Assembly (NCBI GenBank): GCA_015061955.1
Contig: SUVO01000014.1
Span: forward strand, 1 to 64,000
Source of the DNA: Verrucomicrobiaceae bacterium
GTDB lineage: Bacteria; Verrucomicrobiota; Verrucomicrobiia; Opitutales; Intestinicryptomonadaceae
Reading direction: 5' to 3'
DNA length: 64,000 nt
This document shows, piece by piece, positions 49,257 to 51,117 of this stretch. A program made the position numbers and the translations under genes. The notes below the pieces were generated by a model. The model searched no databases and was not told the origin of the DNA. It was given only the letters and a program-made list of their open reading frames with translations. Numbering within the stretch: the first letter of the stretch is position 1; each line of letters begins with the position of its first letter.

Positions 49257-49286
49257 TTGACTATTAGATTTATAATAAGATACATT
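49257..49286 (+). promoter_or_regulatory. Weak sigma-70-like promoter of the PEP-CTERM gene
   Basis: TTGACT at 49257-49262 with TACATT at 49281-49286, spacing 18 bp. The -10 match is only four of six; a better TATAAT at 49271-49276 is too close to the -35. Confidence 0.35.
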
Positions 49287-49314: not shown

Positions 49315-50969
49315 ATGAAGAAAACAATTATAACAACATCGCTCTGCGTATTATTCGTAGGAGCTTCAATCGCAGCAGAAGATATAGTTTATAGAGGATA
49401 TAGTTTATAGAGGATATAGTTTATAGAGGATATACTTCTACTGATCCTATAAATGAACAGAATACATTCTCTTCGGTAGAAGTTGGAACAAAAGTTTATG
49501 TTACAGATGGTTCCAACATGAAATTTGAAGGTAGAGGAAGTTCTGGGGTAAGTGGAGTAGAAAAGGTAGATGTATTTGTTCAGAATAACAGTACATTGAA
49601 TATTTCTGGACACGATGCAAATCAGTGCTGGACCGCTAATTCGTATAGTATTGACAAAACATCGAAAGTAGTATTTTCCCAGACAAATGCTCAATCAAAA
49701 ATTACAGGTAATAGTACATTTTATGTAAAAGGATTGCTCACAAAGGAAAACTCCGGAGCAAAGGCATCTATTGCAATGAACGAGGGTGCCCACATTATTG
49801 TTGATGGAGGAACAATATCTTCGGCATCGTACGCTGTTGGTGGTGTTATTGATGTTGTAAATGGTGGAAAATTTATTGCAAGCGATACAACAAGAGTAAC
49901 AGATTTAGGTGGTGATTTTACTGGTGTGAATTACTACGGAACTCGAACAGAAGTTAATGTAAAAAATTCTACGTTCGATATTGCTGGAACTGTGAATGTT
50001 GGATTGCGTGCAAATGCTACCACAAATAAAGATGCTATTTTAACACTCGATGGTGCAACTGCTAAAGTTGGCAAAGATTTAAATATCGGGTGGAATACAG
50101 CTTCATATTCCGACGATAATCCAAATAGTGGCAAGGGTTTTGTGTATGTAAAAGGAAATACAAAACTTGAAGTTGCCGGTAATATAAATGTTAGCTATCA
50201 AGCAACAGCTGGTACAAGAAATACAAGTACAGGCGTATTGAATATTGATAGCAATGCATCTGTAAAAGCTACAAATATAAATATTGGTTCACAAGGTTCA
50301 ATGTATATTACTTTGAATGGGAACGAAGAGCAAATCAATACATCAATCAACAATGCAGGTACATTATCTGTAGCAGCAAATGCTAGTCTAAGTGCAGGTG
50401 ATTATAGTATTGCACTTAATGGCTTGACCAATTCAGCAGACGCAACAGTTAAAGCATATGGTGGCACTATTAATGGTAATATTTTTACCGCATTTGGTTT
50501 TCAAAATATAACATTAGATTCTGCAGAATCTGTTAGTGTAGTTGATAATGGTAGAGTTGCTGTAGATGGCGGTACAGTTACAATGGCATTTAATACAGAT
50601 AGTGCATTAGTAAATGGCGTTTCTGATGTAACAAGTTCTTTATCACAAGCAGTGGGCTCAGATTTTGCAAAAATGAGTGCTTATGAATTCGATGTTGTAA
50701 TCGATTCGGGTGATACAGTTGTATTAAGCTTCTATGTTGGCGATTCAACATTAACAACAGATAACTTTTCAATCTTCCATAAAGCAGATGGCGGACAATG
50801 GGGAAAAGCTAATGATATTTCAAACGTAAGCTACGATGGTGAATATCTATCGTTTGTAGTTTCGAGCTTCTCGTCATACGGATATGCAGCAGTTCCAGAG
50901 CCAAGTACATACGCAGTAATTTTGGGAGCATTGGCACTTGGTTTTGTAGTATATCGTAGAAGAAGGTAA
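49315..50969 (+). pseudogene. PEP-CTERM surface protein put out of frame by a 16-bp tandem repeat
   Basis: The ATG at 49315 begins a signal peptide (MKKTIITTSLCVLFVGASIA) and stops after 31 codons at a TAG at 49408-49410, inside the second of three copies of a 16-bp repeat. The rest of the protein continues in another frame: Gly/Asn/Ser/Thr-rich beta-repeat sequence (GGVIDVVNGGKFIASDT, DLNIGWNTASY), ending VPEPSTYAVILGALALGFVV plus YRRRR, a complete PEP-CTERM sorting tail. Removing two repeat copies joins the frames without a stop, giving a 540-residue secreted protein with junction AEDIVYRGYTSTDPIN. It is thus silent in this sequence but otherwise intact. An internal start at 49518 would lack the signal peptide. 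Confidence 0.85.
49381..49434 (+). repeat. 16-bp tandem repeat, three copies plus six bases
   Basis: The unit GATATAGTTTATAGAG occurs at 49381-49396, 49397-49412 and 49413-49428, followed by GATATA. All copies are identical, pointing to recent expansion. Because 16 is not a multiple of three, copy number changes the frame. A second copy always brings in a TAG, so only the one-copy state is open. Confidence 0.97.
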
Positions 50970-50994: not shown

Positions 50995-51021
50995 AAAGCC
51001 ATCTGAATCACAGATGGCTTT
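50995..51021 (+). terminator. Intrinsic terminator of the PEP-CTERM gene
   Basis: AAAGCCATCTG (50995-51005), loop AATCA, CAGATGGCTTT (51011-51021). Confidence 0.8.
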
Positions 51022-51036
51022 ATCACTGCAAAACAA

Positions 51037-51117
51037 GTTATTCCGGAACCATCAACATACGCTATGATTTTTGGTTCAGTTGCGTTAGCAGTTGCCCTTT
51101 TACGCCGTCGTAAATAG
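51037..51117 (+). pseudogene. Orphan PEP-CTERM sorting tail
   Basis: The frame reads VIPEPSTYAMIFGSVALAVA then LLRRRK and stop: proline-glutamate-proline box, hydrophobic helix and basic end, the complete sorting signal of a PEP-CTERM protein with no protein in front. The open frame reaches back only to 51007, running through the terminator of the previous gene. It is similar to, but not a copy of, the tail at the end of the neighbouring gene, so a second paralogue probably lost its body by deletion. Confidence 0.8.

Follow-up and report, generated by a model that had tools for sequence, protein, structure and literature searches.

Among described systems, the closest to the locus reported here appear to be the spontaneous tandem duplications of pneumococcal capsule genes, which the titles of Waite et al. 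(2001, on type 3; 2003, on cap8E and tts) associate with high-frequency phase variation (PMC4022640). As far as those titles indicate, both there and in the gene studied here an open frame has undergone tandem duplication and a surface product is thereby lost; the latter departs from the capsule genes in carrying three copies of a 16-bp unit and in encoding an exported PEP-CTERM protein, and is represented by one assembled state only, whereas pneumococcal cultures were seen to switch their capsule. The capsule product is reportedly regained when a copy is precisely lost. A reversible, RecA-independent switch based on a tetranucleotide repeat has been described for icaC of Staphylococcus aureus (PMC4117637). 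As in our focal gene, the frame of a gene connected with the cell surface is displaced by a repeat that is not a multiple of three; unlike the focal array, the 4-bp unit of icaC stays a repeat when the gene is ON, and both strain and read evidence exists for it. By this comparison, the focal locus seems to match the pneumococcal duplications better than a many-copy repeat such as that of icaC.

Repeats situated in promoters have also been described. The length of a poly-C tract sets the expression of meningococcal opc, with 11 C in the parent and 12 C in high expressers (PMC3447861), a situation comparable to the poly-G promoters of the sister genes described below and not to the focal gene, where such a tract is lacking. 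Few-copy tandem repeats of longer unit vary within isogenic populations of Mycobacterium tuberculosis (PMC12817950); these sit in promoters and alter their strength, whereas the focal array alters the frame. Furthermore, invertons near PEP-CTERM genes have been reported in gut bacteria, and homopolymer tracts in Akkermansia capsule genes. In the open-licence literature, no publication was found combining PEP-CTERM, homopolymer and promoter, nor any combining Opitutales and phase variation.

The focal gene, its array and its reading frame

The window, i.e., the whole stretch of 64,000 nucleotides analyzed here, belongs to a 2.43-Mb genome in 35 contigs (93% complete) from an uncultured, gut-type bacterium, probably a member of the order Opitutales. 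This genome gave 47 PEP-CTERM matches and encodes three exosortase-family proteins (PF09721, over cut-off); the PEP-CTERM sorting system is therefore present. Nearly all of the other PEP-CTERM genes are open and possess a signal peptide (about 43 genes). The focal gene, a PEP-CTERM surface-protein gene on the forward strand (49315-50969), is OFF in the assembly, and has 540 codons when rebuilt with one repeat unit. By frame reconstruction, the stretch up to the array, 49315-49380 (+), comprises the start codon, the signal peptide MKKTIITTSLCVLFVGASIAA and one more residue, and the leader resembles sister-gene signal peptides, e.g., MKKTILTTSILTLLAGSIYA. A match of this leader to Dr_adhesin (E 0.0025, under its cut-off) was put down to signal-peptide resemblance.

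The original prediction, that three identical 16-bp units follow the signal peptide and silence a PEP-CTERM gene, agrees with what both Tandem Repeats Finder (TRF) and direct reading give: three copies of GATATAGTTTATAGAG at 49381-49428 (+; 49381-49396, 49397-49412 and 49413-49428), trailed by a partial fourth unit, GATATA, at 49429-49434 (+). The array measures 58 bp and has unique flanks, and its TRF score of 109 compares with 52 for the next-best array in the window. It is far beyond chance: 38 matched positions are needed at shift 16, whereas simulated sequence matched in dinucleotide composition (2.4 Mb) never exceeded 14 at any shift from 7 to 60. Perfect arrays of at least three copies with a unit of at least 7 bp were surveyed across about 608 kb of the genome's own sequence (the window, 144 kb of PEP-CTERM loci, some of them overlapping, and 400 kb of sampled genome), where no further one was found, as well as across 161 kb of relatives, where none was found either. 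The focal array is accordingly a one-off within the sampled sequence, and arrays of 16 bp are no feature of the family.

Read from the ATG at 49315, frame 0 gives MKKTIITTSLCVLFVGASIAAEDIVYRGYSL and then a premature TAG at 49408-49410 (+), inside unit two; past the signal peptide, the three-copy frame thus holds ten further codons (EDIVYRGYSL). The passenger open frame (49404-50966, +) lies at -1 relative to the signal peptide when three copies are present, so that the signal peptide exists out of frame with the passenger and joins it only at one copy. As the frame ends at this TAG, a cell with three copies would neither export the passenger nor anchor it. Re-initiation was considered as a rescue and rejected: no ATG, GTG or TTG occurs in the passenger frame (49404-50966) ahead of the ATG at 49518, and a product starting at this first downstream ATG would have no signal peptide.

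At its other end, the passenger carries the PEP-CTERM sorting motif VPEPSTYAVILGALALGFVVYRRRR (50892-50966, +), matching PF07589 with 23.5 bits (cut-off 20.7) and TIGR02595 with 21.6 bits (cut-off 16); the C-terminal PEP motif, the hydrophobic stretch and the basic end of the class are all found. An AlphaFold model covering the final 400 residues of the passenger is beta-rich with a C-terminal helix (pLDDT 76), and no solved structure matched it at E below 0.001, so that no function is claimed. Resemblance to other proteins is confined to the later part, reaching 51% to one sister gene over residues 241-513 and 35-48% to the best congeners and family members; an alignment search gave partial relatives at 39-48%, and the closest relatives elsewhere show 33-48% identity over part of the focal protein only; those relatives with named records are assemblies of uncultured Opitutales and Verrucomicrobiota. 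No true orthologue of the focal gene was found among plasmids, genome contigs (searched by protein) or viral contigs (searched by exact match). Short PEP-CTERM frames in congeners were examined as further switched-off genes and set aside, since nearly all of them lie at contig ends.

Upstream, a sequence pattern at 49257-49286 (+), TTGACT-N18-TACATT, is a possible promoter, lacking the poly-G tract seen in 25 sister genes, although promoter-like sites do not exceed chance (11 found vs. 11.2 expected). Downstream by 70 bp, just beyond an inverted repeat at 50995-51021, lies an orphan PEP-CTERM end at 51040-51117 (+), a 36-codon open frame that is the remnant of another gene.

The frame was also rebuilt in silico for zero to seven units of GATATAGTTTATAGAG. 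One copy alone is open, giving an uninterrupted protein of 540 residues; each case from two to seven copies stops after 31 codons, and zero copies stop after 29 codons and are hence also OFF, a case that the original prediction had left out. Its remaining structural claims stand, namely that three copies end the frame at the TAG in unit two, that removing two of them fuses signal peptide and passenger into 540 residues, that the unit is not a multiple of three, and that any copy number above one (here, two to seven) is stopped, limiting ON to a single copy. The interpretation built upon them, an on/off switch of the surface protein, is partly supported. As in tandem-repeat phase variation, the unit is not divisible by three, lies inside the frame and near its start, and one copy number (n = 1) yields the full open frame; on the other hand, the repeat does not persist in both ON and OFF states, as the ON copy would keep only an imperfect direct repeat matching at nine of ten positions.

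Origin of the array and competing explanations

The one-unit junction reads AGAAGATATAGTTTATAGAGGATATAC. The left half of its imperfect direct repeat, AGAAGATATA (49377-49386, +), and its partner AGAGGATATA (49425-49434) are identical at 9/10 positions and stand 16 bp apart in that junction. Slippage in replication between AGAAGATATA and AGAGGATATA, flanking one unit in the ancestor, would have duplicated 16 bp, and a second slip, on the now-perfect repeat, would have raised the number to three. The left edge of the array reads AGAA and not AGAG, as an origin by slippage predicts. One copy is therefore the probable ancestral state, because it is the one-copy junction that carries the imperfect direct repeat able to seed such a duplication; the likely direction, from one to three, is read from the junction and not from relatives, since the focal gene is without a close orthologue. 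Were two units to be lost, whether by slippage or by recombination, the complete protein would be recovered exactly, and the allele may thus be reversible in principle.

The explanation that we consider best, with a confidence somewhat better than even, is that the gene, which encodes a secreted, beta-rich PEP-CTERM surface protein and is intact in other respects, was recently turned OFF, the array being a passing loss-of-expression allele within a large, redundant family. No further lesion is found across the 513 passenger codons, in which 3.9% of single substitutions would create a stop, and some 77 or more neutral substitutions are unlikely to have accumulated there without one. Taken together, the identical units and the otherwise undamaged passenger would mean either recency or retained selection. 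The seed repeat at the one-copy junction, the some 43 open sister genes alongside three exosortase-family proteins, the breakage of two sisters by ordinary 1-nt frameshifts and the uniqueness of the array in the sampled sequence also speak for this explanation.

Against this explanation it counts that the sister genes carry many hypermutable tracts, so that a genuine switch is likelier here than usual. The focal array could be a maintained contingency locus, in which cells with one, two and three copies coexist under alternating selection and the array is kept for switching. The position just past the signal peptide of a surface protein, the perfect copies and the frame-shifting unit are what such a locus would display, and it would sit in a genome with poly-G promoter spacers at 25/44 PEP-CTERM genes and a G8 or C8 near the start in three. 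Nonetheless, the geometry predicted from the reconstruction is that of a poor switch and argues against a well-tuned one: ON demands exactly one copy, a form with no tandem repeat, and three copies must lose exactly two units, either via the two-copy state, itself OFF, or by a two-unit deletion. With an OFF intermediate at two copies and no perfect tandem repeat left at one, the locus appears lopsided, further expansion being easy and restoration harder. Moreover, the sampled genome contains no second such array, and among congeners the gene is not found at any useful level of identity. We therefore regard a maintained contingency locus as unlikely, if a serious contender.

The array might instead be the first inactivating mutation of a plain pseudogene in decay, whose protein is no longer under selection. 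Two other PEP-CTERM genes of the genome, C22:106723 (L084) and C29:13677 (L085), each contain a disrupting 1-nt frameshift at a site free of tandem repeats, so that loss in this family is not rare, and the orphan PEP-CTERM end downstream could be read in the same way. Decay is nevertheless improbable for a gene with 513 codons free of a second lesion and with a lesion of a precisely reverting type.

It is more doubtful still that the three copies are an artefact of assembly or sequencing, or belong to an allele carried by a minority within a strain mixture in which most cells would have one copy. The division of the genome into 35 contigs, its 93% completeness and the metagenome-assembled nature of its relatives leave some room for such an error, but an array of 58 bp with unique flanks is short enough for single reads to span. 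Assemblers tend to collapse, not expand, short repeats like this one. Finally, leaky -1 ribosomal frameshifting at TTTATAG (49404-49410), by which some full-length protein would be made, is hardly credible, since TAG as the second half breaks the X XXY YYZ rule of slippery sites, even though three copies put the passenger exactly in the -1 frame, with two codons overlapping the signal-peptide frame, and T TTA suits the first half. A recent, passing OFF allele of an otherwise intact gene is hence retained as the preferred reading.

Poly-G promoter tracts at sister genes

A search of the host genome (G000) for TTGACA followed by 7-13 bases and at least 7 G returned 29 distinct sites (counted from 51 overlapping rows), and the reversed-pattern control returned none. 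PEP-CTERM gene starts could be placed in 44 cases, C29:15531 being doubtful, and a poly-G tract lies between -35 and -10 in 25 of them (24 by script, plus C4:22884 by inspection); examples are found at L092:2056, L092:3583, L096, L102:195 and L104:835. The tracts comprise 8-10 G, mostly with TAGCAT, TAGTAT or a similar hexamer directly after. As scored at 22 sites, the spacer is 18 in nine and 19 in twelve, and the remaining one, scored as 21, becomes 19 if TATAAC is taken as the -10. Three further PEP-CTERM genes contain a run of eight G or C in the first 100 bases of their coding sequence, i.e., G8 in signal-peptide codons at C9:72483 and C9:70752, and C8 near the start codon at C31:80557, each in the open state in the assembly. 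As background, only two G/C runs of at least 8 occur in 464 kb (the window together with the sampled genome). The focal gene has neither a poly-G spacer nor a G8/C8 tract.

A second shared upstream motif, roughly ATGGGTATTTRTAATACTATAT, precedes four PEP-CTERM genes without poly-G (L039, L040, L041 and L046), and a G11/C11 run is present at L136:18193-18203, close to the 3' end of a minus-strand frame of 261 codons.

Beyond the host genome, the pattern is absent from five other family members and from 13 congeners, save for one probably chance match in a looser search. G172, a genome from another family of the order, has five sites, of which four are located ahead of PEP-CTERM genes (L186, L188, L190 and L192); the G tracts of these four are 7, 7, 8 and 9 long, and their spacers range from 14 to 17. 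A survey of the phylum gave matches to TTGACA-poly-G-TANNAT in 13/388 genomes by automated tally (G000 included; L206-L223) and zero for the reversed-pattern control across the same 388; several of these matches precede secreted proteins, one of them a PEP-CTERM protein.

Homopolymer length in promoters is an established route to phase-variable expression, as for opc; the poly-G tracts are only candidates for promoter phase variation of PEP-CTERM genes. The main alternative is that the tract forms a fixed regulator site, and the narrow 18-19 spacing fits either. With this side finding, phase variation becomes more probable a priori; as the focal gene has no tract, it supports phase variation of the PEP-CTERM family generally and not of the focal gene.

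Possible meaning for surface variation in Verrucomicrobiota

Taken alone, the focal allele is another frame-shifting tandem duplication in a surface gene, from a lineage for which no published account of such phase variation was found. If its copy number does vary, this would be the first frame-switching PEP-CTERM gene found in the open-licence literature. On a broader and more speculative reading, which we entertain tentatively and as a minority possibility, PEP-CTERM proteins would vary genome-wide by three kinds of repeat, namely poly-G spacers (25/44), start-codon G8/C8 tracts (three) and the focal array; poly-G promoters would then represent a recurrent, undescribed route by which Verrucomicrobiota phase-vary the surface proteins that they export, with the focal array as a rare additional switch. 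The presence of poly-G in the promoters of more than half of the genome's PEP-CTERM genes is a stronger pattern than the 16-bp array and more deserving of study, and it allows surface variation in uncultured Verrucomicrobiota to be tested directly on reads that already exist.
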